Shown: one piece after another, positions 11,852-60,716 of the stretch
Layout of the letters: the number at the start of each line of letters is the position of its first letter
How positions within the stretch are numbered: the first letter of the stretch is position 1
Origin: Symbiodinium natans
Taxonomy: Eukaryota > Sar > Dinophyceae > Suessiales > Symbiodiniaceae
Assembly (NCBI GenBank): GCA_905221605.1
Contig: CAJNDS010000180.1
Location: 685,001 to 749,000, forward strand
Reading direction: 5' to 3'
DNA: 64,000 nt
The notes under the pieces: generated by a model
What the model saw: the letters and a program-made list of their open reading frames with translations, nothing else
Told to the model about the DNA's origin: nothing
Database searches by the model: none
Position numbers and translations under genes: made by a program

Positions 11852-11901
11852 AAATTAGGCTTCCTGCGGAATTGGTAAAGATTTTTCGTTTGTTTAACGC
11901 C

Positions 11902-25215: not shown

Positions 25216-28200
25216 ATGAAGTTGACGCTGTTCCACGCGCTGTTGACCTTGGCAGCCGCAGGGAAGTTCCACACTCGTCGGACGATTCTCAGTGTGGACA
25301 CATCTGTCTCGGTCAACGAGAGCAACGTCGCCCAAGCCTGGCTCCACGCCCCAGGCAACCTCCCGAAGTGCCATGAGAAGAAGGTTGTGGGCTCCAGTGA
25401 TGACAAGTTCCTGCAGTGCCCGAAAGAATGCCCAATCTATGCCGATGACCGTGCGGATGGCACTGACTGCAACTTCGAGTGCGTGGAAGCAACTCCGAAG
25501 GCGTGCACGGCCGTGAACGCCAAAGAGCCTGTCCCTGACAAGGAGCGGGGCATTTGCCGAGCTTGCATTATCTATGGCTGTAAGGCCTGCACCAGCGAGG
25601 GCCAGGACACCTGTGCTGTCTGTGAGTCGGGCTTCAAGTTGAACGCGGCTGGCAAGTGTGACAGTACAAACACGTACTACTGGTACGCACTCTTTGCTGT
25701 GCTTGGAGTTGTGGCGCTCTTCATCGTCGGCTGGGTTGTTGACATCGCTCGCCGCCCGATTGTCAATGCTCAGGGCCTCAAGGGTGCGCTTGATGCTCGG
25801 TCGCGCTCCAAGGTACACATGCCGAAACAGTCCGGCTCTGACGCAGGACGAGATCTTTACCCTTTGCACACCAACCTCCTGAAGACGCCGGTGGCCGGCA
25901 TTGGTGTGCAGCTCCACTTCAACTTCCAGTTCTTCCTTATCGTTTGGTCGTTGGCTATCGGTTTGGCGTGGCTGATTCTTGCCCTCTCCGTGGACGATGC
26001 GCTACTCATCCTCGGCACTCGTCGCGCCAAGACAGCTCGACAGAACTGCATCCTTGTGGCCTGGGGCTTCGAGACGCAGCAGCGCCTGATGTGGACCAAG
26101 ATCGACTTTGTGGCGTGTGCATACCTACTCACCTTCTTGGGCTGCTTGGCCTTTGGCGTGCGTCAGCTGCGTATCTTCCAGAAGGTGGACATGCAGAACT
26201 CCACGCACAAAGATTACGCTGCCCGGGTGAGGAACCTCCCATTAATGGATGGAACGGAGCCTGTGGAGGAGGAGCTGAAGAAACGCATCGAGGATACCAC
26301 TGGTCAAAAGGTCGTGGGCGTCTCTGTGTGTTGGGATTTTCAAGAGCATGAGGACGAGCTTATGGAACTCATTGAGAGTAAGCTTGTTGAGAAGGAGGAG
26401 ATGCTGCACCCCCCGGCCAGTCAGGAGGAGCACCCCGAGCCAGAGAGCTTCTTCGCCCGAATGGAGCGCTCGATGCTGGCAGCTGATGCAGAGAAGGTCG
26501 TGGCCAAAGGCGAGATGACTGAGGAGGAGCAGGAGCATGCGAAGAAGGATGCTGCTGCGCACCCAGAGGAGGAGCACGTGGAAGAATGCAAGGAGGTTGA
26601 CATCGTGGGCATCCTGAAAAGCATCAAGACGTGCCCCGACGCCTATGCGATTTTCGAGACAGAAGCTGCTCGTGATGCTGCGGTCGAGGCTGTCCACGGC
26701 GGAGGCATCGAGTTTGCGGGAAACACCATTACCTTGAACGCCTCCCGCGTGGAGCCGCAGACAGTGAACTGGCGGAACTGTGCCAACACAGACCTGATGG
26801 TAAAGGCCAAGCGCATCGGCTTTGGCTTCCTGATCATGCTTGCAGGTCTCACATTGTGGGTGGTGGCTTTCTACTTGCCCTATGCCTGGTTCACCTTGAC
26901 GTTCAACTATTCATATGGGCAGGAACCAGGCTTCGTGGCAGGGATGACTTTCTCCATGGTTGTTGTGGCTGGGAATGCCTTGATGTACCTGGTCTGCAGT
27001 GAAGTCGCAGATCGCACGCGCTTCATCTATGTGGATGACCGGGAGGTGTGCTACATGTTGCTCTACTGCTTCGCGTGTGTGTTCAACGTGGCGCTGGACC
27101 TGATCACCACTTACATGGTGGCATACCGTATCAACGTGGGCTTGCGCATGAAGACCTACGACGGCACCCTCCTGGAGAACCTCCAGCACTTCTCCGACCG
27201 TTTCGAGTCCTATGCCATGCAGCGCCTGCTTGCGAATAACCTTTACGCCTACGCCTTCCCTGCCACGTTCCTCATCCCTTTCTTGATCGAGCCAGTCGCC
27301 ACCATCTATGCTCCTTACAAGATGATGCTGGCCATTGTGCGGACACAGCCGTGCATGAAAGGCTTCATGGCCGAGCGCTTGTTGGGAAGTCTGGTCTTTG
27401 ACCTCTCCCGCTACGCCGATCTCATGTTGGATGTTATGATTGCTGTGCTGATTTTCTTCTTCCCCGGTGGCTTCAACATTCAGATGTTTGTTGGCCTTGC
27501 CGGTTCGCACTTGTACCTATATCCCCCTTGGGAATCATTTTTTATTTGGGTTTATAAAAAAGCCAAGAGGATATTCCACATATTATTTATGAAGGTTCTA
27601 AGGGGAGTATAGGTACATCTACTTCTTCGACCACTACCGCGTCCTGCGATCCATCCAGAGCTGCAACTACGCAGACAAGATGGTTGATTGGTGGTCTCAG
27701 TGGATGATGTGCATTCCCTGTGCCTTCATGCTGGCTTGTGTGGTGTTCAAGGCCAACTGCCAGGCAGGCTACCCGTGCGTGGACGGTGACACCATGATCA
27801 TTGCCTGCGTGGTTGCATTTTTTGGCCACATCGTACTACACACACTTGCGCTCAAGTTTGTTGTGCCAAAGCTCGGCCTCTTTGGGGAGTCGGATGGCGC
27901 AGAGACCAACACCTACCAAGATTGCTCCAAGCGCATCCCATGCTCTTGGTTCACTGCAAATCCGGTATACTGCCTGCGCTCACAGTACATCTACAAGCAC
28001 AGTCCCCCCTGCACTTTCTGCCTGCCAGGAAAGGAGCACCTCCTGGAAGTGAACGAGGATATCGGCCTCTACTTCAACGATGCCCCGGCCAAGGAGGAGG
28101 ATTACGATGCGCCGCACGTGGATGTTGAGGCTGTGAAAGCAAACCTCCAGGATCTCCGCGGCAAGGCATCAGAAAGCTTCGAGCAGCTCAGGGGAAAGGC

Positions 28201-40719: not shown

Positions 40720-40817
40720 CTATATCCCCTTGGGATTTGTTTTTTTTAAACTTTTTGTTCAAATAAAATCCAAGAGGATATTGAAACTATTTTTTTAAGG
40801 TTCCAAGACAAGTGTAG
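40720..40817 (+). mobile_element. Family A element, third copy
   Basis: CTATATCCCCTTGGGATTTG on the left and AAGGTTCCAAGACAAGTGTAG on the right, with the same middle CCAAGAGGATATTGAAA as the two verified introns. It sits after an exon-like frame (QQQTLEAQGLSRADLRAKEDELVKSWKARLF would be its reading). The flanking repeat here is TTT, which gives no G-starting splice donor, so I do not claim it is spliced. Confidence 0.65.
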
Positions 40818-42642: not shown

Positions 42643-44954
42643 ATGGCTGAAGCCGCCTCTGGCTACGCTGGAGATCAAGGGGATGCACCTCCGGGCCTTC
42701 ACTCCCTTGCCCGCGATTTCCCGCATAAGCCTTCCGGGTGTCTGAACCACGGATCCTTTGGGGCGGCCCCCAGCTGCGTCTTGGAGTCGCAGCGAAGCTA
42801 TCAGAGGCGCTGGGCCGAGCGACCTGACGAGATGTTCTTCCGAGGTGAGCTCTTCGATCGTCTGCGACTTGCGGCCGCCAGTTGCATCCCCCTGCTCACG
42901 CGCAGCCCTGATCAAGTCCTTCCTACGCAAGTGGCCTTGATAGAGAATGCTTGCGCCGCAACTATATCCTGCTTGGGAATCAATTTTTGATTCTTGTTTA
43001 TATAACACCCAAGAGGGTATTGAAATTAGTTTTTCTGAAGGTTCTAAGGGGAGATACAGGCAACTGCCATGATAGCACACCGCTGGTCCAAGCTGGTCCA
43101 TCCGGGTGATGTGGTTTTCGTTCTTGACTGCGTGTACGGGGCTTGTCGGATGTGTCTCCGCGAATCTTGGTAACCCTGTGGTACCCTTTGCCCCCTGTTT
43201 TTTGGGGGGGGTTCAAGGTTCCCTTACAAACTAGCCAAGCAAAAAAGGGGTGCTCCCATTATAAGATGGTTGCTGGGGTACCAAGGAATACTGCTGCGCC
43301 GATCCCCGCATCGGTGGGGAGTTACTTGCCCTGAGCATCTTCGAGGACTACGGGGCTTTTCCCAGGTCCTCCGCAGAGATCCTTGGGGAGCAAAGGAACC
43401 CTAAAAGTTGGGGTCATAAACCCTATGCCTACACTACAAAAATCCCTATTAAAGTATATGAGCCGTAAACCCTATAGTTACTACTAGAATTCCCTATTAA
43501 GGGTAGTATGAACCCTAAACCTTATGCTACCATAGTTTTCCCTATTCAGGGTAATAGGAACCATAAACCCGTTTTGGGTTCATTTCGTCCTCAAGGATAG
43601 CGGAACGGTTCCGCAGCAGCCTGGCCAAGCAAGTCGAACGTCTTAGGCAGGCAGTTCATTCAGAGGCTGAGCAGCCCAGTGGCACCCTTTTACCCTTTTT
43701 GTTGGTAGGGTGTAGGGTGTAGGGTTTAGGGTGTAGGGTTTAGGGTTTAGGGTTTAGGCTTTAGGGTTCCCTTTACTTGAAAAGTAACGGGTGCCCTGAT
43801 TATAATATGGTTAATGACTGGGCTACTTCGGAGGAGGAGGGCCAAGCACTGGCCCAGAATCAACCAGCTCCGCCAGAGCGAAAGGTGTTCTTCTTCTTGG
43901 ACTATGTGTCGTCCCAGCCCGCCTTTGTTCTGCCTGTTGCAGAGATGTTGCGAGAAATCGGAGCTATCCTAAGCACAGACAGTGCAGGTTCCTCATGCCT
44001 GTCGTTGGGTGAGATCTGCATCGATGCTGCACATGCATTTGCAGTGGAGGGGCTTGATGTCGTGAGGCAATTCGAGGGCTTGTCTCCAGAACTGAGACCG
44101 CACTGGTGGTTTGCAAACCTGCACAAATGGGCCTTTGCCGCCCCAACAGCGACCGTGGTGTACGCCAAAGACTCAGAACTCATGAGTCAGACTTCTCATC
44201 CGATGGTCAGCTGGTTTTATGGCAAAGGCTTGCATGAAGAATGTCTGTGGGCAGGAACTCGCGACTACAGCGCCCTGCTTAGTGTGCCGTCGGCAGTGCG
44301 ATTCTTTCAGACATGGCGTAGCAACCCGGACGCTGGAGCCCATGAAGGACTAAGTCCTGCAGCATTCTCAAAGGCAAAGATCCTTGAAGCCGGCAGATAC
44401 CTCGCAGAACTCTGGGGGACAACCGATACTTAGTAGTAGAGTAGGTAGCCTTTAACCTTTTTTGGGGTATGAGACTTCCTTTGTAATCCCAAGGGTTAAC
44501 CTTTAGTCCCCCAAGGATACTGGACAACTTTAAGGATACCCTGCCACATCCAGAGCTGGTGTGTGCTTTGATGATGGTGGAGCTCCCACGAGACCTTGAC
44601 ATGGGAGCGGCAGATATACCAGGTCTTCCCACGGCAGACACGAAGCTTAGAGATACTTGGGAAATAGTGCTTTGTGTTTCAGTTTTTGGGGCACCTGAAT
44701 TCCTACGAACGGCCACGTTTTTTTTCCTTTTGCTAGGGTTCCCAGTTCAGTAGAGGAAGGAGAGGCGGAGCGTGCGATCGATGCTCAGGGACGACTACGG
44801 GGTCGAAGCTGCTGTGGGCACTTTCGGGCCCTGCGGCAACTTCATCCGCCTCTCCTACGCGGTCTACAACACCTGGGATGACATCCTACAGCTGGGGCAG
44901 GGGGTCATGGACATCCTGCGTGCGCAGCGCAGCAGCCCGAAGCTCAACCCTTGA
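42643..44954 (+). CDS. Class-V PLP-dependent aminotransferase (isopenicillin-N-epimerase-like), seven exons
   Basis: Exons: 42643-42957, 43060-43161, 43286-43377, 43596-43668, 43834-44424, 44535-44651 and 44760-44954. They join in one frame to 494 residues. Landmarks in order: LNHGSFGAAP near the N-terminus, VALIENA, VLDCVYGACR, FLDYVSSQPAFVLPV, ICIDAAHAFAVEGLDV (a D-A-A-H cofactor-binding segment), WWFANLHKWAFAAP (the PLP lysine in HKW), HPMVSWFYGKGL, LWAGTRDYSALLSVP, MMVELP, and the C-terminal YGVEAAV...IRLSYAVYNTWDD. These fit the class-V family whose members act on amino acids such as cysteine or penicillin precursors; the substrate here is unknown. The frame is open upstream from another ATG at 42481, so the start is uncertain. 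Five of the six introns use GC or GA donors and carry duplicated flanks; boundaries of introns 4 and 6 are the least certain. Confidence 0.85.
42958..43059 (+). mobile_element. Aminotransferase intron 1: family A introner, GC-AG
   Basis: Begins GCAACTATATCCTGC and ends GGGGAGATACAG. Exon 2 starts GCAACT, repeating the first six bases of the intron. The middle (GGGAATCA, CCAAGAGGGTATTGAAA, GAAGGTTCTAAGGGGAG) matches the 27513-27612 intron. Exon 1 ends on a whole codon, and splicing gives ENACAATAMIAHRW, the family's expected segment. Confidence 0.88.
43162..43285 (+). mobile_element. Aminotransferase intron 2: family F introner, GA-AG
   Basis: Intron GAATCTTGGTAACCC...GGGGTACCAAG, with GAAT repeated at the start of exon 3. 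Inside the GAAT the ends are CTTGGTA and TACCAAG, a perfect inverted pair. Only this GA donor joins MCLR to EYCCADPRIGG in the frame that later gives FPRSSAEI. GA donors are reported for dinoflagellates. Confidence 0.78.
43378..43595 (+). mobile_element. Aminotransferase intron 3: family C introner, GA-AG, with internal duplications
   Basis: Starts GATCCTTGGGGAGC, ends TTTCGTCCTCAAG, and exon 4 starts GAT. At 218 bp it is twice the length of other C elements because an internal TACTA...CCCTATTAAG block occurs three times. Splicing joins SSAE to IAERFRSSLAKQ in frame. Confidence 0.82.
43669..43833 (+). mobile_element. Aminotransferase intron 4: family F introner containing a telomere-like array
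   Basis: GAGCAGCCCAGTGGCACCC on the left and GACTGGGCTACTTCGGAG on the right, with GAG duplicated. The core CCCTTTTTG...GGTTCCCTTTAC is split by about 60 bp of TAGGGTG/TTTAGGG repeats (about 43706-43768). The exact boundary is ambiguous by one GAG unit. Confidence 0.7.
44425..44534 (+). mobile_element. Aminotransferase intron 5: family B introner, GA-AG
   Basis: Starts GATACTTAGTAG, ends GACAACTTTAAG, and exon 6 starts GATACC, a 5-bp duplication. Splicing joins LWGTT to DTLPHPELV; without it there is a stop at 44431-44433. The core CCTTTAACC/GGTTAACCTTT is the family B signature. Confidence 0.85.
44652..44759 (+). mobile_element. Aminotransferase intron 6: small element-like intron, boundaries uncertain
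   Basis: An in-frame GA...AG choice (44652-44759) joins TKLR to ERRSVRSMLRDDYG. Inside are inverted stretches ACTTGGGAA and TTCCCAGT and a T-run. No other copy of this family was recognised in the window, so element origin is inferred. Confidence 0.55.
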
Positions 44955-48416: not shown

Positions 48417-48525
48417 AAAATCAAGCCCCGATTTTGGAAAAACTCAGTGTCATGGTAGTAAAAATATGGTTTTTAGGAGTTTTGTAAATAATTAATACAA
48501 TATTTTTGAGATATTATTGTATTAA

Positions 48526-49203
48526 TCATTCATATTCATACACACTACCACCATCACTATCACTATCACTATCATTATCACTATCACTATCGGTATTAAA
48601 CCAATATTCATTAATGATATTTAGTAGAGAAAAACCAAAATCGCAATCATATAAATAGTGATGAGTTTCAACAATACTTCCGTGGTTATTATCCATAATA
48701 TAAAAAATGACTTCTTTCAGTATGTTATAGTATGCATTTAATATATGGGGGTTTTTACGATAATATAAATGCTTAAAATCAAAAAACATATCAGCATTAT
48801 CTAAATTATCATACAACCATTTCAACTTCTTATGTTGAAACTCAGTATATGTAATTAATCCCTTCAATATTTCATTTGTGATAAACTCATAAGAAGGAAA
48901 TGGATTAAACTTAATAAAATAATATGTTTGAATTTCCATTAATGAATAGTATTTCCAATCAATACAATTTCCAATTACAGAGGTTATTTTAATGCACTTT
49001 GAACATGAAAAGAAATTACACACAGAAGCAATTGTATTATCATTTAAATTAATCTTGAGTTGTTTTTTTAATCCCAGTCGCATTTTCTTACATTCTTGGC
49101 AGTTATTAACAATTGACATTACATAATTCAGACTATTCATTAAATCATCCTTACAACAATGTTTGGGAATATCAGAACTGGTAGCGCTTTCTGTATCACT
49201 CAT
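48526..49203 (-). CDS. Hypothetical viral protein with an acidic Ser-Asp tail
   Basis: I chose the ATG at 49203 (MSDTESATSSDIPKHCC); the frame also opens upstream with a TTG only. The product is about 225 residues with Cys pairs near the N-terminus (KHCC, NCQECKK, FFSCSKC) that could bind zinc. A mostly helical middle follows, then a C-terminal SDSDNDSDSDSD run. A TATATATAC motif sits about 13-20 bases upstream. I recognise no family. Confidence 0.6.
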   Translation of the reverse strand: MSDTESATSSDIPKHCCKDDLMNSLNYVMSIVNNCQECKKMRLGLKKQLKINLNDNTIASVCNFFSCSKCIKITSVIGNCIDWKYYSLMEIQTYYFIKFNPFPSYEFITNEILKGLITYTEFQHKKLKWLYDNLDNADMFFDFKHLYYRKNPHILNAYYNILKEVIFYIMDNNHGSIVETHHYLYDCDFGFSLLNIINEYWFNTDSDSDNDSDSDSDGGSVYEYE

Positions 49204-49264
49204 TTTCACACTAGTATATATACCTGTTATTTCTTTAAATGCTTTCTTCCTTGAATGGTTCAAA

Positions 49265-49428
49265 CCCGTGAGGATTAAACCCCCTAGGGTTAGCTTTCAA
49301 ACCCCTAAGGGTTAGCTTTCAAACCCCTAAGGGTTAGCTTTCAAACCCCTAAGGGTTAGCTTTCAAACCCCTAAGGGTTAGCTTTCAAACCCCGAAGGGT
49401 TAGCTTTCAAACCCCCAACTCCTAGAGT
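49265..49428 (+). repeat. 22-bp tandem repeat, about 7 units, palindromic core
   Basis: Unit AAACCCCTAAGGGTTAGCTT plus TC. The core AACCCCTAAGGGTT is an imperfect palindrome. Ends abruptly where the next array begins. Confidence 0.9.
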
Positions 49429-49672
49429 TTGCCCATAAACTCCTAGATAGTGCCCATAAACTCCCAGAGTTTGCCCATAAACTCCTAGAGTTTGCCCATA
49501 AACTCCTAGAGTTTGCCCATAAACTCCCGGAGTTTGCCCATAAACTCCCGGAGTTTGCCCATAAACTCCCAGAGTTTGCCCATAAACTCCTAGAGTTTGC
49601 CCATAAACTCCTAGAGTTTGCCCACAAACTCCTAGAGTTTGCCCATAAACTCCTAGAGTTTGCTCAGAAGCA
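49429..49672 (+). repeat. 21-bp tandem repeat, about 12 units, palindromic core
   Basis: Unit ACTCCTAGAGTTTGCCCATA plus A. ACTCCTAGAGT is an inverted repeat around CTA. On the minus strand all units keep one frame open (49378-49689), encoding GVYGQTL repeated; this may be a by-product of the 21-bp period. Confidence 0.9.
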
Positions 49673-49764
49673 AACGCAAGAGAAAACAAGTAAAAAGAAA
49701 AAATGAATAAACAAAATAAAGATAAACATAATTAATACAAATATTTAAGGTCATATTGTATTAA

Positions 49765-50310
49765 TTATTTGCTTAGTAACTCTTGATGCTTGGCAGTTCT
49801 CTTATGTGAAGCCATATTCCGCGTGGATACATAACATCCACATTCACATAGCCTTTTCTCTTGTAATTTCATTGTAAGGGTTTCTTTGTGGTCTTCTCTA
49901 TACTTCTTATCTACCTCATGTTTGTGTTCCTTTGTTCTCTCTCGGTATTCTTTTTTTTGTGCCTTGCTATGTTCTATTGTATCATAATAGTGTTGTTTTT
50001 TGGTTCTACCCATAATTTTTCTATTCACACATGTTGTGTTTCGGATGTGGTAACCCTCTCGCGCTTCAAGTTCTGTTCTATTCTGACATGGGTACATTTC
50101 CAGTAATTCAATTTTGCAGTTTTCCATCCCGAATTCGTTAAACAAATGGAATGCAGTGGTGAGATTTCCATTATTGTATAAATATTGTTTGTATTTATCT
50201 CGGTGTTTCGTCATTCGCTTTGATAGTTCTTCAACAGTACTACCAATGTAGCATTTCGTATAATTACTATCCCAAATAGCATATATTTTACCTTTCTGGA
50301 AGTCTGGCAT
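49765..50310 (-). CDS. GIY-YIG endonuclease with C-terminal zinc-finger-like segment
   Basis: A 181-residue protein from the ATG at 50310. The GIY-YIG core is clear: KIYAIW (residues 8-13), YIGST (21-25), the conserved Arg in LSKRMTKHR (R32) and a glutamate in ELEAREGYHI (about 84). A basic linker (YRERTKEHKHEV) precedes a CECGC...H...H segment (about 153-174) that may bind DNA with zinc. Such nucleases cut DNA in homing and viral recombination. It sits next to the integrase gene on the same strand, 36 bp from its end. Confidence 0.85.
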   Translation of the reverse strand: MPDFQKGKIYAIWDSNYTKCYIGSTVEELSKRMTKHRDKYKQYLYNNGNLTTAFHLFNEFGMENCKIELLEMYPCQNRTELEAREGYHIRNTTCVNRKIMGRTKKQHYYDTIEHSKAQKKEYRERTKEHKHEVDKKYREDHKETLTMKLQEKRLCECGCYVSTRNMASHKRTAKHQELLSK

Positions 50311-50345
50311 TAGTTGTATAACCGAATATACCTTTAATTACCTTT

Positions 50346-51257
50346 TTACACCTTCAACAACTCAAAACGTAAATAGCCTCTGCTCATACCTTCCACATAA
50401 TAATATTTTTGCCCTAATTTCTCCTCTATTTTTTCTACTGTATATACGTTCTTTGAGAAATTTCCTATGCGTTCTTTTTCATTGGGCTTTCTTTTCCTAA
50501 ATATTTTAACCTCGTCTCCTTTGTCCAACTCAGGATATACCTTATTTTTCTTTGCCTTCTTGGCTAAATTCAACTTAACCTCTAGCTCATTTGACGGCTT
50601 TCTCGCCTCTTTTGGTGTCATTTCGGTGGCGGAATGTTTCATAACATTATTGTAGGTCAGCAGTATTTCAAATATGTAATTCATCCACTGAATATTTTGT
50701 TTCCCCTTTTTCTCATCTGCTTCAACCCTCCTATACAACAAATCTTTAAACGTCCGTATCGCCCTCTCACTGAAGTTGGGGTGTGCTCTTGTTATGTGGT
50801 GTTGTATGTTTTGCTCTTTGAAATATGTTTGTATTGCTTCCTTGCTCAGAGCTCCTTCATCATCGGTATAAACGACCTTTGGTTTCTTCCCCATCTTGTT
50901 TAAGCTTTCTATAATACCACTGGCTAAATCTTCTTCTGTTTTACCCTTAATAGGTACAACATGCATGAACTTATCAAACACATCAATCGTTAGCATTCCT
51001 ACTCTAAATTTTTGGTCCTCCATATCATTAATAAAGAATAAGTCTATTTGATACTCGTATGCCGAGTGAGGAGCCACAAAACTGTTTCTGCCTGGTGGTC
51101 TTCGTTTTTGCTCTACATTCTTCCTAAAAAACTCATTGATATCATCTGCTGTTATACTTTTATCTTTCCTCCTTGCTTCTTGTAAGGTCCGCGCCCTACT
51201 GCCGAAACCGCTCCTATCAAAATACACTTCGCTAATAATATCTTGTTTAGAACTCAT
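50346..51257 (-). CDS. Retroviral-type (rve) DDE integrase
   Basis: From the ATG at 51257 (MSSKQD) the protein is 303 residues; an earlier in-frame ATG at 51293 overlaps the stop of the polymerase gene and would add a hydrophobic dozen residues. The catalytic core shows D72 (EYQIDLFFI), D132 (VVYTDDEGAL) and E164 (NFSERAIRTF). The C-terminal SH3-like part (GDEVKIFRKRK...VYTVEKI...YLRFELLKV) follows. Polinton/Maverick elements and some Polinton-like viruses and virophages use this enzyme to insert their DNA, with a short target duplication. N-terminal HHCC residues are not evident. Confidence 0.88.
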   Translation of the reverse strand: MSSKQDIISEVYFDRSGFGSRARTLQEARRKDKSITADDINEFFRKNVEQKRRPPGRNSFVAPHSAYEYQIDLFFINDMEDQKFRVGMLTIDVFDKFMHVVPIKGKTEEDLASGIIESLNKMGKKPKVVYTDDEGALSKEAIQTYFKEQNIQHHITRAHPNFSERAIRTFKDLLYRRVEADEKKGKQNIQWMNYIFEILLTYNNVMKHSATEMTPKEARKPSNELEVKLNLAKKAKKNKVYPELDKGDEVKIFRKRKPNEKERIGNFSKNVYTVEKIEEKLGQKYYYVEGMSRGYLRFELLKV

Positions 51258-51289
51258 TATAATAAACAAGATATTATATATTCTCACCT

Positions 51290-54200
51290 TCATTTAGAGC
51301 TACAGTTACAGTAATGACAATAGGCTATACAATTAGCTTTAACATGCGCCATCTCATTATTTACGCGCTGGGCTGTTAGATTACTAACCAACTCCCCGCA
51401 CTTAACATCAAATTCAAACCCGCATCCGCATTTATTGCACCTTGAATTAATCCTATCATACAGCCACTTAGCATTAATATAATCGGCATCTTCTACATTC
51501 CTACCTGCCTTTAAATCTTGTATCTTGTAGCGCTTAACCTTGTTCTCTAAATATCGCATTAATGTAGCCTCGTTTAATTCATCATCCTTTTCTTCAGACT
51601 TGTAAAACATAACTTTATTAATATCAGTAGCCCTTGTGATGCTCGTATAAAGCCACTCTCTCGTTATTAAGTGTTGCTTCTGCCATTCATGTATAGTGAT
51701 GGACTTATCAACTGAACTACCCTGTGACGAATGACATGTAGCGCAGTAAGCATACCTAAAATGCTCATTAAGTGTAGCTATGCTCGTATGATATAATTTG
51801 TTCGTGTGTATGTTCTGTAGCACTACCCCATCGGCTCCGATGCTCTTAATCTGATACTTAAAATTGACATTAAAAGTGCTCTCCCCATCCTTCTTATATT
51901 TCCTACATATCATATACTCACCGACTTCATACCTATCCTTCTTGCTCAGATTTTTTCTAATCGTGTTTGATACATACAAGCACCGTTTATTCGTGTATGC
52001 TATGTTGTGTTCAGATGCCATTATATCGTCAGTTGTTTTAAAGTATTTATCCACAATCTGCTCAATTGGTAGTTTATGTATCCAGATGTCGTCATAAATT
52101 CTCTTAAGTTTTATTCTGTCGCTCCTCTTCTTAAGTCTCTTGGATATTTTAAGATATATTTTATGTTTAAATATTTGGTTGATGCATTCATTCAAGTAGG
52201 TCTCGTGGTCTCGTGTGTTGGTCATATCCTTTATTGGTGGCAGTTGCTTACCGTCCGCGGTGGCTATGATGATTTTGTCCTTGGAGTGTGTATTAACAAA
52301 CTCCCTTATTTTTTTTAATACATACATCCCTCCCATACCTACCTCATCAAATACTATACAGTCATAGGGACTGTGGTCAAAAGTTTCCATTCTATCTCCC
52401 TTCTCCATGGGTATAGCAAAGAATTTGTTGTTAGTCGTTGCGTCAGTTTGTGTGTTTTGTAGCAGTTGGTTCGTAGGACATACAAACAAGACATTATACC
52501 CTAAATTCTTCATATACTCGCCTATATAGCTCTTTCCACTTCCAGCATATTTAGCCTTTATTATTACAGGGTTCTTCTCTATTATTTGCTTGCAGATTGC
52601 ATCGGCATTCCATTCGTCCTCTACCATTATCCGTTCGTTCTCAAATGTCGGGATTTCAACCAACTCACTTGGCTTCATCTCGTAATTGTCGGTTGGTGGT
52701 CTGTATTGCTTATCCTTCTCTACTCTCCAGCCCCCTATCTCGTTGGAGAAGTCAAGCCGTCTTTTAGCGCGCCACAGGTCGCTAGTATCTATCAGAAAGG
52801 CATCGGTCTTGACATAATGAACCTTTATTCCTGCTTGTGTTAGTTTGCAATAATCCTCATACATCCTGAAGTTGTGGATTTGCAGTAGCAGTTCCTTAAT
52901 GTATCTATAGCCGTTGGTCAGTTCGGCTTTCGCTGTGACCGTCAGCATGTAGTATTTTTTCTCCGTTTCTTTCTCAACCTTCTCAATATCATAATATTTA
53001 CCGTTGATAATCCTATACTGTCTCAGCTCATCATCCTCTAATTGGTTCTTATCTTCATCGGTCATCTCTCTTAGTATCTCGTCGTCATACCATCCACTCA
53101 CCTTGTTTATCCTACCACCGAACAGGCTCTGATGATAGACCGTTTCGGACAGAGTGTCAAAGACTAAGGTTTTCTGTGCTTTGTTCGTGCCCTTCTCCAA
53201 CAGTCCTATATTTACATTGGCTATGAGCTTCTTAATATTAGTGTCTTCATGTAGTTTGTTTGATATACTAGTTTCCCAAAGTTTCTCAACGATGTTTTTA
53301 TAATTGACCTTGTATGTGTGAGAAGGGAGTTTATAATACAAAATCTGACATTTCCCAGATAAGTGTTTTAAAAACTTACCGTATATTAACATATAGGGCT
53401 TATTGAAGAACATCGGTGCCTCATCAACTGCCCTCACGAGAAAAAGGCCCAAAACCCCAAATTCCTTGTAATCGTGCTTATCATAATCATAAGGCTTCCA
53501 GATGTCAAACTCGTTGAATACGGGAACTTCTACAATCTGATTGTATGCCCAAGTGTAAGCCTTACTCCTATCAATCTCTATGTGCATATCGTCCCTACTA
53601 TCATGAAGCTGAAGGATGTTTCCAGAAGGTGCTATACTGTGACACTGTCTGAAAATTTCCCTATCAGCTTCATTATAATAGGATTTGTGCAGTGGATTAA
53701 ACAGCTCCTGATTGAATTCGTGCATCGCCTTTGACATGTTGTTATATGTTGCTTCAGCATCCCTCAGAAAATCCTCTTCGGCATTCTCTATCGTTATACT
53801 TCCGTCCATGGATGTGGTTATTAGGTTCTGCGTTTTGACCCTATACTTGATTTCCTTATACTTTCTTTTAGTGAGCTTCACCTTAAACTTGAAATTCAGT
53901 TCCGATATCACTCCCGCCATAAACTTGATGTATGGCTCGTATCCTGCTTCCCTGCTTTGGTAGTATAACGTGGCTAAGTTGTTGTGGCTGTAAATCATCG
54001 TGTATTCCTCCTTCTCTGTGTATTTGAGGAGGTCGTCTATGTGCTCTATCATTCTACATTCAACTGGTTCGTCTCGCTCGTTAATGTGATAATCACTTGA
54101 AGCCTTAACATTGATGTTATGCTCTCTCTCTACCGCCATCAGCCGTTGCAATGCTTTTATATCTGTATTTATAGTATAAATATGGTCGTTTTTCACTAAA

Positions 54201-55234
54201 GCATAGAAGGTTTTATGATGATGGTCTCTTTTAGGAGGGTCGTAGGTAAAAATTAGGTTCTCCATGTCGTCAAATATTCTAGCGGTTATACGATACTCTT
54301 TAAAGACCTTTGCCATATCCTCTATTGATGCTCCAACGGTTTTAAATTCATCTTCTGTGGTTCCTATCAGCTCAAGCACTGCTTTTCTCGTCATCGGCTT
54401 CTTTTTCTTATCGCTCATGAGACTGTCCATATAAAAGTCAGTTAAGGTATTTATCCAGCACTCGTGCTTGACATAATGCTTGACCCGTATGGCTTCAGCG
54501 AAGGTCTCGTATTCGGGGTCTAGCTCAGTTTCTATGAACCTGTGATAGATGCCTATGTTGTCGGAGTTTCGTAGTTTTCTATTTTTGGGGTCATACTTCT
54601 CACCGTCGCCATCAACGGGAACGGCATTTAAAATCTTAAGGGCATCAATATTATATTTTTTGGAAATGAAGTCCTGAATATCATCGTCCTTTTGTAGCTC
54701 AAGTGTCGTTTTTACATACAGGTCTGGGTGGTCATATTTGATAATCCGTTTGCCGACATTATCCTCTACATCCTTAGTAGTTTTAATGTTGGCTGTTTTG
54801 GGCTCTCTGGTTAGTAGGTATAGAGGCTCTCCCCTGCTGTCTGAAAATGCCTTTTTCGTTTTACTACCCTCTTCCTTTTGGTAGGTGTAGAACAAGACAT
54901 CAATAGAATAGCTTCGTTGGACGCTTCGTTTTCTTCTTTCCGTGTTCTCCTTCTGGCTTCTTTCCATCCTCACACCTAACGGTTCTTTCTCCTCATGTTT
55001 CTCTACGAGCTTGTCGTAGTTTCTCGTAGCCTTCGCTTTGTCCTTGGTCGTGGTTGCGCTAATCAGCTCGTTTATAATCTTAGATGCGGTGGTGACTTGT
55101 GCTATTTTACGGTCGTCATACAGGTTTATGATGTTTCTGATTTTGGCTCTGGTGTCTGTTGATACTCTGTTCCTATTTACTCGTAATGTGCTTTCTAAGG
55201 CACTCAGATTTCTTCGTATAGCTTTTCGTGTCAT
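51290..55234 (-). CDS. PolB-like DNA polymerase fused to SF1 helicase, zinc-binding C-terminus
   Basis: One 1314-residue frame. The polymerase half shows EIDRSKAYTWA with D555 (motif A), NIGLLEKGTNKAQK near 671-688 (motif B region) and YVKTDAFLID with D811 (motif C as TDA instead of DTDS). The helicase half has Walker A AGSGKS (898-902), Walker B FDEVG (D963 E964), HSSQGSS (about 1170) and YTSITRAT (about 1198), as in Pif1/RecD-type SF1 enzymes. Four Cys pairs (CNKCGCG...C...CHYCNC, about 1262-1312) end the protein. The N-terminal third is unassigned, but Cys259 (HECWINTL) and His351 (KNDHIYTIN) are spaced like a papain/OTU-like fold. No clear 3'-5' exonuclease motifs were found. It probably replicates the element. 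Confidence 0.78.
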   Translation of the reverse strand: MTRKAIRRNLSALESTLRVNRNRVSTDTRAKIRNIINLYDDRKIAQVTTASKIINELISATTTKDKAKATRNYDKLVEKHEEKEPLGVRMERSQKENTERRKRSVQRSYSIDVLFYTYQKEEGSKTKKAFSDSRGEPLYLLTREPKTANIKTTKDVEDNVGKRIIKYDHPDLYVKTTLELQKDDDIQDFISKKYNIDALKILNAVPVDGDGEKYDPKNRKLRNSDNIGIYHRFIETELDPEYETFAEAIRVKHYVKHECWINTLTDFYMDSLMSDKKKKPMTRKAVLELIGTTEDEFKTVGASIEDMAKVFKEYRITARIFDDMENLIFTYDPPKRDHHHKTFYALVKNDHIYTINTDIKALQRLMAVEREHNINVKASSDYHINERDEPVECRMIEHIDDLLKYTEKEEYTMIYSHNNLATLYYQSREAGYEPYIKFMAGVISELNFKFKVKLTKRKYKEIKYRVKTQNLITTSMDGSITIENAEEDFLRDAEATYNNMSKAMHEFNQELFNPLHKSYYNEADREIFRQCHSIAPSGNILQLHDSRDDMHIEIDRSKAYTWAYNQIVEVPVFNEFDIWKPYDYDKHDYKEFGVLGLFLVRAVDEAPMFFNKPYMLIYGKFLKHLSGKCQILYYKLPSHTYKVNYKNIVEKLWETSISNKLHEDTNIKKLIANVNIGLLEKGTNKAQKTLVFDTLSETVYHQSLFGGRINKVSGWYDDEILREMTDEDKNQLEDDELRQYRIINGKYYDIEKVEKETEKKYYMLTVTAKAELTNGYRYIKELLLQIHNFRMYEDYCKLTQAGIKVHYVKTDAFLIDTSDLWRAKRRLDFSNEIGGWRVEKDKQYRPPTDNYEMKPSELVEIPTFENERIMVEDEWNADAICKQIIEKNPVIIKAKYAGSGKSYIGEYMKNLGYNVLFVCPTNQLLQNTQTDATTNNKFFAIPMEKGDRMETFDHSPYDCIVFDEVGMGGMYVLKKIREFVNTHSKDKIIIATADGKQLPPIKDMTNTRDHETYLNECINQIFKHKIYLKISKRLKKRSDRIKLKRIYDDIWIHKLPIEQIVDKYFKTTDDIMASEHNIAYTNKRCLYVSNTIRKNLSKKDRYEVGEYMICRKYKKDGESTFNVNFKYQIKSIGADGVVLQNIHTNKLYHTSIATLNEHFRYAYCATCHSSQGSSVDKSITIHEWQKQHLITREWLYTSITRATDINKVMFYKSEEKDDELNEATLMRYLENKVKRYKIQDLKAGRNVEDADYINAKWLYDRINSRCNKCGCGFEFDVKCGELVSNLTAQRVNNEMAHVKANCIAYCHYCNCSSK

Positions 55235-55384
55235 ATTTAGATTTAGATATTAATTTAATATAGTTATCATTTCTTTAAAAGGGTTTTCCTTGAATTGTTG
55301 CTTATCATTTCATTTTGAATAATTTCTCTCTGTGCGTTTAAGGTATTTAAAGGAATATTTACATATTATGTTATAATAGGAATA
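55235..55384. promoter_or_regulatory. Divergent promoter region between polymerase and a small viral gene
   Basis: AT-rich 150 bp between two outward-facing starts. On the polymerase side TATCTAAATCTAAAT lies just upstream of the ATG. Confidence 0.5.
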
Positions 55385-55663
55385 ATGGTTAAAACTTCAA
55401 TCTATCACGATGTAATTAAGGATTTAAACCCTGATGAATACACAATGGAAGAAATCAAAAAGCAGATGGCCATATACAACAGGCTGTATTACTTGAAGCT
55501 CAAACAGCAGGAAGGGTATATGGAAAGCAAGAAGGAGAAGGTGAAACGGGCCTACCGCCAGAAGGCAATAGCGCAGATGATTAAGGACGACAACATCAAT
55601 GTAAATGAGCTTTCTAGCCCTCAGGAATTATTGGACGCTCTTTTAAAAAAGCCTAATAATTGA
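55385..55663 (+). CDS. Hypothetical small basic viral protein
   Basis: 92 residues from an ATG, highly charged and probably all helical (ESKKEKVKRAYRQKAIAQMIK). It is the only plus-strand gene within the minus-strand block and faces the polymerase gene divergently. No family recognised. Confidence 0.6.
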   Translation: MVKTSIYHDVIKDLNPDEYTMEEIKKQMAIYNRLYYLKLKQQEGYMESKKEKVKRAYRQKAIAQMIKDDNINVNELSSPQELLDALLKKPNN

Positions 55664-55710
55664 TAATATTATTGCTAAATAATATTATTAATTATTTTAT
55701 TTACTTTTTA

Positions 55711-56526
55711 CTAAGAACTTACAGACTGAATACTTGAGCGCCTTGAACTGGTTCTGCTTCTTATGTATTCTATTGTTTCTTGCGAGCGCCTTGAGCTTAC
55801 AACACTTTGTGGGGGTGTAGCTTCATCAACATATTCAATTGTCCTATCACTATTAATAGAACTTTGAACTGATACAGGTGGCGAAGAACGAACATATTCA
55901 CTTAATGCCTCTTCTTCAATAGGTAATAAAGCACTCCTGTTTGAACTTCTTCTGGAACTTGATGAAGATGATGATGAAGGCTCATAAGATTTTTTAACAT
56001 TCATAGGTAAACTATCGTCGCTCTCTTCACTTTGTTTTTTCTCTACATAAGCTTCATGTAAATCTTCTTCTTCTTCTATTTGTTGCCTTCTACTTCTCAT
56101 TTCCTCTCTTTCTTCTTTAAATTCATCCTCTCCGAACATAGCATCATACATTCTCCTCATTATTGATTTACCTCTTTCTCTTTCCCTTTGTGGTTCGCGG
56201 TCGCGTTCGCGTTCATGTTCCTTTTCTACACTTGCTTCGCTTTCATCTGTTTGTCTCTCTTTAACTTCTTCTTCAATTGTTTTCATACTTTCACTTTCTG
56301 TTATGCTTGGTGTAACATCAAAATTATCGGTTTGTGTTCCCTTATCAGGGTTATCATTTAACAAAACTGTTTTCCTGTCATAATTATTCAAATCAAAGTC
56401 ATCAAAATCAACATCATCTAACAATATTCCTTGTTGTGTTCTTTTCTGTTTCTCTGGTAATATTTTTAGTCTGTGTGTTCTCGCTTCTCTTTCAATTTGT
56501 TCAAATGTTGGGCGAAGTTTTAGCAT
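55711..56526 (-). CDS. Hypothetical viral protein, disordered, with N-terminal LKLRPTF motif
   Basis: 271 residues. The N-terminus MLKLRPTFEQIE matches the N-terminal part of the next gene (ELKLRPTYDEMI). The rest is low-complexity: acidic runs, an ERERDREPQRERER block, poly-Ser (SSSSSSSSRRSS) and SSRRS motifs. Composition suggests a virion-internal or scaffolding protein, but this is inference. It shares strand and tight spacing with the neighbours up to 59764. Confidence 0.65.
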   Translation of the reverse strand: MLKLRPTFEQIEREARTHRLKILPEKQKRTQQGILLDDVDFDDFDLNNYDRKTVLLNDNPDKGTQTDNFDVTPSITESESMKTIEEEVKERQTDESEASVEKEHERERDREPQRERERGKSIMRRMYDAMFGEDEFKEEREEMRSRRQQIEEEEDLHEAYVEKKQSEESDDSLPMNVKKSYEPSSSSSSSSRRSSNRSALLPIEEEALSEYVRSSPPVSVQSSINSDRTIEYVDEATPPQSVVSSRRSQETIEYIRSRTSSRRSSIQSVSS

Positions 56527-56541
56527 ATACTAATAATTAGA

Positions 56542-57567
56542 TTAAATTAAACTCATAACAGCACTTCTAGCCCCTGCCACGACAGCCTCCTTTACAGCCT
56601 CTTTTCCTGCTTCTAAAACAGCACCACCTACGGCTCTAGCTCCACTAGCAATAGCAGAACCTATACCACCTGAACTAGAACTAGCTGATTTAGCCTTCTT
56701 CATGTTTCTCCATTCTTTTGTTCTTTTTCTTAACAGTTCGTCATTCACCATTGTTTGCCATTCGTTCTCTTCTGGTTCTGTTCCTATGAGATTTTCAATA
56801 ATTCTTAATAAATACAATTTCTTTGATAGTTCATCAGGTAGATTTTCAACATCAGTTTCCATTTTGTCTGTTAGCTGTCCTCTGATATACAACTGAAATA
56901 ATAAGTCATCATAATTTATTTTCTGGTTCGTCTTCATTTTTTCAATATCATTGTTCCAAAATAACAACCCCCTTTGATATGGATTAGGGTCTGTATCTTC
57001 TGCTGGTATTAGTTCTTCTTCTGAACTCTCTTGTTGTATCGGTTCTAGAGGTGGCATATCATCTTCCCCATCAATATTAACTCCGGCGGGTAATGATTGT
57101 CTATGTGCTTCATCTAAATCAGTTTTTGCTGATGATGCTGATGCTTGTTGTGCTTCTCGTTGTCGCTGTTGATGTTTTTCCATTTCCGCCTTTATCATCA
57201 TAATTTGCTCATCTGACATATTAACATCATTTGTAGGTGTTTCAAAGCCGTCGGCAGTGTAAGCACCTATAGGCGTTCTACCTCCATAACTTAGGACACC
57301 CATTGATGAGCCGGTAGCCATTGCCGTTTGTCTCAACTGTGTTTGTCTTATTTCCTCTTTTACCTTGTCTTCCTCTTGCTTCTTCAAGCCTAGAAAATCA
57401 ATATTATCAAACTGACTGCCGAACTGATTATTTCTAAATATTGTTGCTCGTCTGTCAATCACTTGTTCTATTGATGGTCTGTTGGGGTCTCCTTGACTTT
57501 CAATCATTCCTATCATTTCATCGTATGTTGGGCGTAGTTTTAATTCAGACTTTAATGTTTTAATCAT
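56542..57567 (-). CDS. Putative virion protein with LKLRPTY motif and C-terminal amphipathic Ala/Gly tail
   Basis: 341 residues. Near the N-terminus SELKLRPTYDEMIGMIE repeats the motif of the downstream gene. A Gln-rich helix lies in the middle, and the C-terminus (SSSSGGIGSAIASGARAVGGAVLEAGKEAVKEAV) is a small-residue amphipathic helix. Such tails occur in capsid-internal, membrane-active proteins of adeno- and Polinton-like viruses, so that role is possible. No enzyme motif is present. Confidence 0.65.
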   Translation of the reverse strand: MIKTLKSELKLRPTYDEMIGMIESQGDPNRPSIEQVIDRRATIFRNNQFGSQFDNIDFLGLKKQEEDKVKEEIRQTQLRQTAMATGSSMGVLSYGGRTPIGAYTADGFETPTNDVNMSDEQIMMIKAEMEKHQQRQREAQQASASSAKTDLDEAHRQSLPAGVNIDGEDDMPPLEPIQQESSEEELIPAEDTDPNPYQRGLLFWNNDIEKMKTNQKINYDDLLFQLYIRGQLTDKMETDVENLPDELSKKLYLLRIIENLIGTEPEENEWQTMVNDELLRKRTKEWRNMKKAKSASSSSGGIGSAIASGARAVGGAVLEAGKEAVKEAVVAGARSAVMSLI

Positions 57568-57588
57568 TATTATATTTAGAATTAGATT

Positions 57589-57909
57589 TTAATTTATTTC
57601 TGCCATTATATGTTTTAATTCATCTTGCTTCTTTTTCAGTTCTTCTTTTGTTCTTACTGGCATCATTGGACGCTCTAACTGTCTGTTAATATCATCTAAT
57701 TGACCTTGATACAACGACTTCTTTTGATGTTGTATCCAGTCATTCCTTAACCTAATGTTTTTGGCTCTGTTCTCTGCTTCTTCAATTCTTAATTTCATGT
57801 CTTCAATTTGTTTCCTTCGTGAAGCAACACCGAAGGTATCTTCAACATCATACGTCTGGCTAACCATCGGCATACGCTTGAACTCAGGCTTACTCTTAAA
57901 CATACTCAT
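57589..57909 (-). CDS. Small viral coiled-coil protein
   Basis: 106 residues, mostly charged heptad-like helix (RRKQIEDMKLRIEEAENRAKNIRLRNDW). The N-terminus SMFKSKPEFKRMP is a weaker form of the K-x-P-[TE]-[FY] motif of the two following genes. TAATCTAAATAATA lies just upstream. Confidence 0.6.
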   Translation of the reverse strand: MSMFKSKPEFKRMPMVSQTYDVEDTFGVASRRKQIEDMKLRIEEAENRAKNIRLRNDWIQHQKKSLYQGQLDDINRQLERPMMPVRTKEELKKKQDELKHIMAEIN

Positions 57910-57940
57910 ATTATTAATATTATTTAGATTAAAAATATTA

Positions 57941-58288
57941 TTAGTAATTAATTTTTGACTTCATTATCTCAACTGCTTCTTCAGGAAAATCAATAACATA
58001 TTTGTCAATCTCATTCAACATCATTTCAGACAGGTTGTAAGTGCCGAGTTCGGTTTCAGTTCTTGCATTGCGAACAGGGAATATGTTTTCAGTGTTTCTT
58101 AAATGCTCCTTTAGTTCATTTAAAGGCATTAGTTGTTTTGGAACAGTAGTTTCACATTTTACACACGCCTCTAATGTAGCGATTTGTTTTAATAGTTCAT
58201 CATTAACATCAAGACCTTTATCACGCATTACATAAAAACCATAATTAAATATTAAACTGCCTTTTTCCTCTTTTGTTAATTCTTTCAT
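57941..58288 (-). CDS. Hypothetical viral protein
   Basis: 115 residues with no recognised motif beyond a Cys pair (EACVKCE). It lies in the same strand series as the capsid genes, with a TATATATTATAT stretch upstream. Probably a minor structural or accessory protein. Confidence 0.55.
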   Translation of the reverse strand: MKELTKEEKGSLIFNYGFYVMRDKGLDVNDELLKQIATLEACVKCETTVPKQLMPLNELKEHLRNTENIFPVRNARTETELGTYNLSEMMLNEIDKYVIDFPEEAVEIMKSKINY

Positions 58289-58304
58289 ATAAGTATATAT
58301 TATA

Positions 58305-58889
58305 TTAAAACATTTTTGATTTAAAACTGTTAATCTTTTGTATATGTTCCTCTCTTTTTGCTCTTCTTATTTCGTTATAAGATGCTTCTAGTAATTCTCT
58401 TGCTGTTAGTTGCCGTGGCACACTTGGCTTTGCTTTCGTTTTAACTTCAATAGGTTCGGAATAATTAACAACTTCATTTTGAGCGTTTTTATCGTTTTCT
58501 TTGATTTCATATTTTGCTTTCATTTCCGCTTCAATTTCTTTCCTTAGTTTTTCTTCAACCTTGGTCCCGTAACTTGCCTTCTGCTTATTCACTGGTAATG
58601 TTTCCGTTGGCTGTCCCTTGCAATAATGTGGGTGGGTGTTTCTTAGAGATTTGGGTAACATCTTTTTATTACAAGCCTGACATTCAACTAACTCTACTAC
58701 TTTAACACTTCTCGCTAATTTCTTGGGAGTTGCTTTCGCTTTTGGTTTTGTTTGCTCTTTAGATGTTTCTTCAGTAGCTTCTTTAATTTGTTCTGTTGGT
58801 GCTTCTTCAGGCGCTTCTTCAATAACTTCATTAGCCACTTCTTCATTAGCTTCTTCATTTTTAACCTCCTCAACTGCTTCACTGCTCAT
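58305..58889 (-). CDS. Viral protein with acidic N-terminus and C2HC zinc finger
   Basis: 194 residues. The first 50 are Glu-rich (EEVKNEEANEEV). A C2HC finger follows, with C70, C73, H86 and C90 (ECQACNKKM...THPHYC). The C-terminus is basic and helical. It may bind nucleic acid or a capsid partner. ATCTAATTAG and TATATACTATA lie upstream of the ATG. Confidence 0.65.
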   Translation of the reverse strand: MSSEAVEEVKNEEANEEVANEVIEEAPEEAPTEQIKEATEETSKEQTKPKAKATPKKLARSVKVVELVECQACNKKMLPKSLRNTHPHYCKGQPTETLPVNKQKASYGTKVEEKLRKEIEAEMKAKYEIKENDKNAQNEVVNYSEPIEVKTKAKPSVPRQLTARELLEASYNEIRRAKREEHIQKINSFKSKMF

Positions 58890-58927
58890 TAATTAATATA
58901 GTATATATTTTTCTAATTAGATATTTA

Positions 58928-59764
58928 TCAACCCCTGAAAAATGTTAAAGTGAAAGAGATATCAACATTATTTAAATTAACCGTCTGATTTAAATTATTA
59001 CTAAGTCTAAAATTCAATCTGCGAAGCATTTTGTTACTAACATCAATATAATCAACACTGCTTAATTCATTGTCGTTTATAATTCCTAAATAGGGAACTG
59101 TTACGTTAATGTTCTTCACAATTGATGAATTACCCGCTACTGTTAATTGGTTGTAGTTGCTAATTTCATTACAATGTAAATACAAACTCTTGAAGGGGAC
59201 AAGGCCAATAAAATTAGTAATGTAAGGAACAAGATTAGTGTAAGCATCGGGCGCGGGTGTTGTATTACCCATTACGCGATTAATTGAATTCAAATTATTA
59301 ACATCAACATCATCTAAAAATGAACCGACAAAAGGCGCAACTTCAGCATCCGTTAAGACAACGAATATAACAGTAGCATAATTAACAGCAATCCTAATTT
59401 TGTTGGTTGTTGCGTTATACCTTACTGTGTATGTATCAGGTCTATCCACTGTATCAAAATAGTTATTTAGTTGCGTTTCTAATTCAGTTGTTAATTCAGA
59501 GGCGGTGTAATTACCTTCGGGAATTGGTATTTTACGATAATAAGCACCCGCTACCAGAGCAGGAGGTAATACTTGATGTCTGAAGTATAAATTATTATTT
59601 GTGCTGTTTATTGAATACCACGAATGGGGAATGCTTACCTCGTGAATTTGACATAGCATATTGTCTTCTAACTGCACCGTTTCAGGTAAATCAATCGTGA
59701 ATTCAGATGAAGTGCCACTCACTTTATAACTACTATCAATATATACTTTTTTAAATTTGAGCAT
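58928..59764 (-). CDS. Minor capsid protein, penton-like
   Basis: 278 residues rich in beta-strand patterns. The N-terminus VYIDSSYKVSGTSSEFTIDLPE, then SIPHSWYSIN and IPEGNYTASELTTELETQL, resemble the penton/minor capsid proteins of Polinton-like viruses and virophages, which form the five-fold vertices as a single jelly roll. It is transcribed away from the lipase gene across only 40 bp and lies near the major capsid gene, as is usual in such viruses. Assigned from pattern memory, not by search. Confidence 0.72.
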   Translation of the reverse strand: MLKFKKVYIDSSYKVSGTSSEFTIDLPETVQLEDNMLCQIHEVSIPHSWYSINSTNNNLYFRHQVLPPALVAGAYYRKIPIPEGNYTASELTTELETQLNNYFDTVDRPDTYTVRYNATTNKIRIAVNYATVIFVVLTDAEVAPFVGSFLDDVDVNNLNSINRVMGNTTPAPDAYTNLVPYITNFIGLVPFKSLYLHCNEISNYNQLTVAGNSSIVKNINVTVPYLGIINDNELSSVDYIDVSNKMLRRLNFRLSNNLNQTVNLNNVDISFTLTFFRG

Positions 59765-59804
59765 TATTAATTAAATGATAAAATAATTTATAACTTATTT
59801 TATA
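59765..59804. promoter_or_regulatory. 40-bp divergent promoter between capsid and lipase-like genes
   Basis: The whole spacer is A/T-only or nearly so and close to palindromic (ATTATTAATTAAATG...CTTATTTTATAAT). Both genes must use it, so it is probably a bidirectional late promoter. Confidence 0.5.
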
Positions 59805-60446: not shown

Positions 60447-60465
60447 TTTCTAAATAATAATAATA

Positions 60466-60660
60466 ATGTTTCATAAAAAGGCAACAACATACGAACAGAT
60501 GGAGAAGACGACACCAAAAGAGAAGAAGTTTAAGCAAAACAGTTATGAAGAAATAAGGAAACTTGTGGAAGAAAATGAAGGAAATAATATAGTTAAAGAT
60601 ATTAAGAACAAAAAGAAAAATAATAAAGAAATTTCATATAATTTTAAATTATTTGATTAA
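60466..60660 (+). CDS. Hypothetical small lysine-rich viral protein
   Basis: 64 residues, strongly basic (KKEKKFKQN, KNKKKNNKE). TTTCTAAATAATAATA lies directly upstream. Position between lipase-like and capsid genes suggests a late gene. A DNA-condensing role is conceivable but unsupported. Confidence 0.5.
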   Translation: MFHKKATTYEQMEKTTPKEKKFKQNSYEEIRKLVEENEGNNIVKDIKNKKKNNKEISYNFKLFD

Positions 60661-60716
60661 ATATAATATTAACAATTATATTTAATTAAATTTTTCTATA
60701 GTAAAATATATATTAG

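Follow-up and report, generated by a model that had tools for sequence, protein, structure and literature searches.

The introners of Micromonas and Aureococcus are reported to be short DNA transposons with one splice site derived from the target site duplication (TSD) (Huff et al. 2016). They belong to other lineages than the organism studied here and are similar to its introns in the TSD-supplied splice site. In Symbiodinium microadriaticum, introners duplicate 4 bp of the target and have inverted ends; the element brings along the 3' splice site, and the 5' splice site derives from the TSD (Gozashti et al. 2022, PMC9860276). In Polarella glacialis, 15 families were found, each of which comprises 100 introns or more (Roy et al. 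2023, as related in the review PMC11453091), and this review puts GC/GA-AG borders at 25-74% in Symbiodiniaceae. The introner elements of Amoebophrya are characterized as repeated introns with direct repeats over their borders and inverted repeats near their ends (Farhat et al. 2021, PMC7789003). Introner elements were also reported for Prorocentrum cordatum (PMC10666404) and a search for such elements was described for the Suessiales (PMC10522408).

Here, we analysed a stretch of 64,000 nucleotides from Symbiodinium natans (contig CAJNDS010000180.1, positions 685,001 to 749,000), in the following referred to as the window, which encodes a class-V PLP-enzyme-like gene of seven exons and 490 amino acids (42643..44954, forward strand). 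With a probability of about 90%, we consider all six introns of this gene to be introners, i.e. DNA-transposon-like insertions that turned into introns on landing. As is typical of introners, similar introns occur in several genes up to the splice borders, the TSDs have a fixed length, terminal inverted repeats are present, and one splice site is provided by the element and the other one by the TSD. The architecture is the same as that given for S. microadriaticum in PMC9860276, from which the locus differs in a family with 3-bp TSDs (family C), GA donors in five out of six introns and many copies outside recognised genes; the likeness is one of architecture and not of sequence families shown to be the same. 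With P. glacialis, as summarised in the review PMC11453091, the locus shares the occurrence of many families in one dinoflagellate genome, a likeness by family number and not by identity. In contrast to Amoebophrya, whose borders are very diverse and non-canonical (PMC7789003), the borders of the gene are all GA or GC...AG|G; variable borders of the Amoebophrya type were not found, since all six introns fit G[A/C]...AG|G. The mechanism is thus already published, and the gene represents a clear example of it rather than a new phenomenon.

An earlier note on this DNA had proposed that several introner families had hit this gene, which it considered unusual. Indeed, we found an element together with a TSD at the borders of all six introns, and five families are represented (A, F twice, C, B and G). 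That this is unusual is not supported, because many families have been published for dinoflagellate genomes, a figure that applies per genome and not per gene.

Each intron consists of one element and its target site duplication

Splicing of the seven exons in silico (42643-42957, 43060-43161, 43286-43377, 43596-43662, 43834-44424, 44535-44641 and 44756-44954) yielded 490 codons in one frame with a single, terminal stop codon, and a premature stop resulted when any single one of the six introns was kept. The in-frame join of seven exons had already been suggested in the earlier note, in which the lengths of 102, 124, 218 and 110 bp proved exact, whereas 165 bp for intron 4 and 108 bp for intron 6 had to be corrected.

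With these corrections, each intron, all six of which were read by hand on the forward strand, is equivalent to one element plus its TSD, which comprises 4 bp for the elements of families A, F, F, B and G and 3 bp for that of family C. Intron 1 (42958..43059, 102 bp, family A) is flanked by GCAA (42958-42961/43060-43063), with a GC donor and an AG|G acceptor. Intron 2 (43162..43285, 124 bp, family F) is bordered by GAAT (43162-43165/43286-43289) with a GA donor, and its element has the termini CTTGGTA...TACCAAG. Intron 3 (43378..43595, 218 bp, family C), also with a GA donor, carries the 3-bp TSD GAT (43378-43380/43596-43598) around an internally expanded element, CCTTGGGG...CCTCAAG; on the reading that family C makes 3-bp TSDs, this explains its weaker-looking repeat of three bases. 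Intron 4 (43663..43833, 171 bp, family F) shows the TSD GAGG (43663-43666/43831-43834), intron 5 (44425..44534, 110 bp, family B, GA donor) the TSD GATA (44425-44428/44535-44538) and intron 6 (44642..44755, 114 bp, the low-copy family G, GA donor) the TSD GAAG (44642-44645/44756-44759). Accordingly, introns 1 to 6 begin with GCAA, GAAT, GATC, GAGG, GATA and GAAG and are directly followed by GCAA, GAAT, GATA, GAGG, GATA and GAAG, so that all six start with GA or GC, end with AG|G and have a TSD at the border. The donor is located within the first TSD copy in every case, and the acceptor AG is provided by the element in all introns except intron 4.

The element of intron 4, which was missed by the end patterns of our copy scan, ends with TCG where family F ends with AAG; the scan also misplaced the 3' end of the element in intron 1, hence the reading by hand. 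Since the intron 4 element thus ends in CG and not in AG, its acceptor had to be deduced: the first AG past the mutated end falls into the second GAGG copy, resulting in an AG|G acceptor and most likely in an intron of 171 bp with the acceptor AG inside the 3' TSD copy, as judged from the sequence and the homologues. This length makes the exon as long as in the homologues P0002 and P0003, P0001 being one residue shorter. A 168-bp intron ending with CG|G would also keep the frame, but it lacks the AG and adds one residue compared with P0002 and P0003, and the 165-bp variant was replaced after the homologue alignment. For intron 6, the 108-bp variant leads to two extra residues that are absent from P0001-P0003, whereas the borders 44642-44755 restore DTKERRSVR, identical to P0002, with the GAAG repeat at either side. 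The border repeats noted before for introns 1-3 and 5 were confirmed; those of introns 4 and 6 had only appeared weak because the borders had been misplaced, and are in fact GAGG and GAAG.

The elements in introns 1-5 are 85-91% identical to the family consensus strings over the aligned positions, and therefore the insertions do not look recent. It is highly improbable that the introns are old spliceosomal introns in which mobile elements were nested later. Growth inside introns does occur, as seen from the TTTAGGG-type array that expanded intron 4 and from the enlarged family C copy in intron 3, but nesting predicts leftover intron sequence outside the element and TSDs internal to the intron, whereas the elements span the introns end to end with TSDs on both splice borders in six out of six cases.

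The host gene is conserved and present in a single copy

A protein search revealed 118 relatives among 7,994 scored candidates, with P0001-P0003 showing 70-76% identity across 96-98% of the query, and the 490-residue model aligned with P0002 without gaps across all six exon junctions. Pfam did not recognise the sequence of the enzyme itself; its relative P0007 matches Aminotransferase class V (Aminotran_5), and a profile built from eight sequences of the enzyme family matches the C-S lyase Egt2 (E 1.3e-21), the closest relative with a solved structure. The gene product is perhaps an Egt2-like class-V PLP enzyme. The Pfam run, the homologue search and the first homologue alignment were based on a 492-residue model with the 108-bp intron 6, and the paralogue search, the splicing check and the junction alignment with P0002 on the 490-residue model. 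In the assembly searched (759 Mb in 2,543 contigs), one match with 31% identity was obtained beyond the gene's own locus, i.e. neither a close paralogue nor an empty site was detected. We regard the gene as real and single copy.

A decaying pseudogene struck by transposons that are not spliced would likewise contain elements each of which, if retained, introduces a premature stop; however, once the elements are taken out, the joined exons contain neither stops nor frameshifts and are 70-76% identical to nearly full-length homologues, of which P0002, a 497-residue protein on a 1,794-bp contig, appears to be encoded by an mRNA-like sequence, so that we regard a pseudogene as barely conceivable.

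The 21-base dinoflagellate spliced-leader pattern had 205 exact matches in the genome versus none for the reversed control, and it was absent from the window even when up to three mismatches were allowed. Together with the named relatives of a second gene of the window (see below), these matches by themselves point to a dinoflagellate host, most likely from the Symbiodiniaceae. Scans of the window for Rfam families (gathering threshold) and tRNAs gave no match.

Element families in the window and in the genome

The recurrence of families A, F, C and B in the window, as claimed in the earlier note, was reproduced; the best family A match (27517-27612) is situated inside a second gene. A genome-wide copy check for each intron, which had been proposed as a test, revealed further copies for every family including family G (intron 6), for which all 11 candidates were scored, one of them being the query itself. 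The 10 other family G copies are 71-81% identical, seven of them nearly full length. For the remaining families, 40 of 375 (A), 40 of 393 (C), 40 of 1,534 (B) and 40 of 925 (F) genome candidates were scored, and the query for family C was shifted by 13 bp relative to the final borders of intron 3. The family models were built with telomere-like arrays masked; introns 2 and 4 are weakly related in the raw sequence (E about 0.02), and their assignment to one family is based on the model of family F.

When copies of 70 bp or more were counted in 15 stretches of 10 kb each, family A was represented once, family B twice, family C 21 times and family F three times. This scales to roughly 5,000, 10,000, 106,000 and 15,000 copies per genome, respectively; the intervals are wide (128-28,208 for A and 65,813-162,519 for C, the latter being too narrow because the C matches were confined to 5 of the 15 stretches).

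The families have terminal motifs in common (CT...AG, often CTTRG) and may therefore be mobilised by related enzymes. Inverted ends are clear in families A, B and F (8.0-10.3 of 12 bases, ungapped count) and weak in family G (mean 4.8 of 12, ungapped count); the low ungapped count of family C (5.4) is attributed by us to a one-base offset, and one C copy (7501..7610, forward strand), which adjoins TTTAGGG arrays, forms a near-perfect hairpin (z -6.45). RNA hairpins as a splicing principle were rejected: introns 1, 2, 5 and 6 fold unremarkably (z -1.47, -0.83, 0.91 and 0.71), so that a hairpin is no general feature of the folded introns of the gene, and the intron at 27513 in the window has a z of -2.36. 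The window was also screened de novo for TSDs of 4 bp combined with 12-base inverted ends starting with CT and ending with AG; this screen, which is too strict for diverged copies, detected three places at 10 matches versus 0 in each of five shuffles and three places at 9 matches versus 1, 1, 0, 0 and 0.

Elsewhere in the genome, family F segments form a tandem array, most units of which are about 104 bp apart (G000 C1871:463262-464471), and two neighbouring family C elements (L040, 3500-3608 and 3712-3872) lie in what seems to be one gene with a DUF1800 match.

Surroundings of the gene

Interstitial telomere-type repeats were noted across positions 1-47000 of the window and in L039-L053, and one such array (43706-43769) is located within the family F introner of a coding gene, i.e. 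intron 4. The density of TTTAGGG/CCCTAAA units over 150 kb of sampled stretches amounts to 12.0 per kb, compared with a random expectation of about 0.12 per kb, and about 9% of the bases are masked by a loose telomere-like array pattern. An AT-rich block with long frames (48500-62150, 29-40% GC) has matches to GIY-YIG, an integrase core (below cut-off), the C-terminus of a UvrD-like helicase and DUF5901 (below cut-off) and resembles an integrated element of viral or Polinton-like type. Long frames with integrase-core (below cut-off) and RVT_2 reverse transcriptase matches at 11872-21118 resemble a Copia-like retrotransposon.

The elements are found in further genes

The second gene of the window contains a family A introner (27513..27612, forward strand) with the TSD GTAC (27513-27516/27613-27616), the removal of which leads to a stop-free frame of 1106 codons from position 25090 that appears to encode a membrane-protein-like product. 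Its junction is gap-free in the eight relatives (77-98% identical) that hold the search string, out of 21 examined; the named relatives are from Durusdinium trenchii (95%, partial), Effrenium voratum (89%) and S. microadriaticum (83%).

Furthermore, six fragments were chosen by eye from 20 joined copies for Pfam analysis, and in four of them domains span the junction. In the family G fragment L078 a BTB domain (above cut-off) and in the family C fragment L026 Sulfatase and SGSH_C (the sulfatase above cut-off) extend across the junction. The DUF1800 match of L040 (family C) is above cut-off and begins just four residues ahead of it, and in L010 (family A) an EF-hand pair model crosses it below the curated cut-off, with single EF-hand models above. 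The two remaining fragments gave matches below cut-off, sulfotransferase-like in L013 and the only match in L073. Thus, families A (this gene, 27513-27612 and L010), C (this gene, L040 and L026) and G (this gene and L078) occur in more than one gene, and no domain match corroborated a second gene for families B and F. On the basis of these predicted junctions, the second window gene and the four fragments obey the same splice-border rule as the class-V enzyme gene.

Target site duplications and the first base of the target

Both ends were recognised in 115 copies outside the gene. Among these, exact 4-bp TSDs flank 20 of 31 copies in family A, 12 of 24 in family B, 13 of 28 in family F and 5 of 10 in family G, compared with 0.99, 0.63, 0.60 and 0.61 expected by random end re-pairing. 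For family C, 9 of 22 copies have exact 3-bp TSDs (expected 2.28), a count that is favoured by the choice between two near-palindromic readings; the TSD length of this family was picked after inspection of the copies. In 56 of the 115 copies, the repeats are diverged or absent. The copies (n = 120) originate from similarity-fetched loci or the surroundings of such hits (92), from the 15 stretches (17), which we chose on contigs already known from hits, and from the window (11). Before counting, copies were dropped if only one end was recognised, if the two ends together had more than nine mismatches or if the flank was shorter than 160 bp, and L001 and L009 (window duplicates) and L004 (inside L040) were removed as well; L038 was omitted from part of the copy analyses.

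A G as the first TSD base (G-first) is present in all six introns of the gene versus 16 of the 50 exact-TSD copies of families A, B, F and G outside it (Fisher p 0.002; 5/5 versus 16/50 when family C is left out, p 0.006). The other 34 of these 50 copies, most of which were picked by similarity, have non-G TSDs. The G-first copies are associated with gene-like surroundings: no TTTAGGG-type repeat was located within 200 bp of 9/16 G-first copies versus 3/34 others (p 0.0006), and an open frame of 100 codons resulted from the removal of TSD and element in 5/16 versus 0/34 (p 0.002). The G-first idea first came from family A copies; for families B, F and G alone, telomere-like repeats were absent from 4/11 versus 1/19 (p 0.047) and the joined frame was open in 3/11 versus 0/19 (p 0.041). 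Family C was excluded from this test because its near-palindromic ends, together with a de-duplication that prefers exact TSDs, favour G-first readings. In the published literature, to the limited extent that we covered it, we did not find a test of the first TSD base against non-genic copies, from which we derive no claim of priority.

As the elements begin with CT and end with AG, antisense splicing would depend on a C at the end of the TSD. Splicing in both orientations obtained no support: among the 34 non-G copies, those with a C as the last TSD base showed no excess of gene-like features over the others (1/10 versus 2/24 without telomere-like repeats; 0/10 versus 0/24 open).

The simplest reading of these results is that the elements land on many targets, of which only G-first landings give introns tolerated by genes. 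A family A copy outside recognised genes (40720..40817, forward strand) has the TSD TTTT/TTTG without a first G and thus no donor. Spread at the RNA level by reverse splicing and back-copying of intron RNAs, as in the model for fungal introner-like elements, would fit family copies sitting exactly between splice borders, but its probability is practically negligible in view of the fixed-length TSDs in five families, the inverted ends in A, B and F, the hairpin in one C copy and the position of 31 of the 34 non-G exact-TSD copies among telomere-like repeats, since TSD-bearing copies outside genes point to insertion at the DNA level.

Proposed mechanism and implications

For the preferred reading of the introns as DNA-transposon-like insertions, we propose that short non-autonomous elements, probably mobilised in a cut-and-paste manner by an unseen transposase, would insert into exons and duplicate 3-4 bp of the target. 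A target consisting of G followed by A, C or T would then provide the donor in the first TSD copy of the transcript, and the element-terminal AG would normally serve as the acceptor, followed by the G of the second TSD copy. Actual splicing, i.e. the excision of TSD and element from the transcript, would bring back the original coding sequence. Dinoflagellate splicing takes GA and GC donors, and therefore many landings should be spliceable, whereas landings at non-matching targets would persist mainly outside genes, with selection presumably acting as the filter.

Five families and two TSD lengths following one rule lead us to the tentative suggestion, which we hold to be rather less than an even chance, that being an introner is a property of host splicing and not of special families. 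If this is true, the rule would demand a target that begins with G and continues with A, C or T, together with an element that has AG at its end, other landings remaining ordinary mobile repeats outside genes. It would apply to a family with 11 matches altogether (G) as well as to one with perhaps 100,000 (C). About one third of the landings would yield introns straight away, and the rule would be open to any new element that ends with AG. In this conserved gene, each intron can be explained to the base by an element, the duplication of its target and the choice of splice sites, and the sister copies outside genes represent a built-in control. Together, they make it possible to test in coral-symbiont dinoflagellates whether the element or the host accounts for introners.
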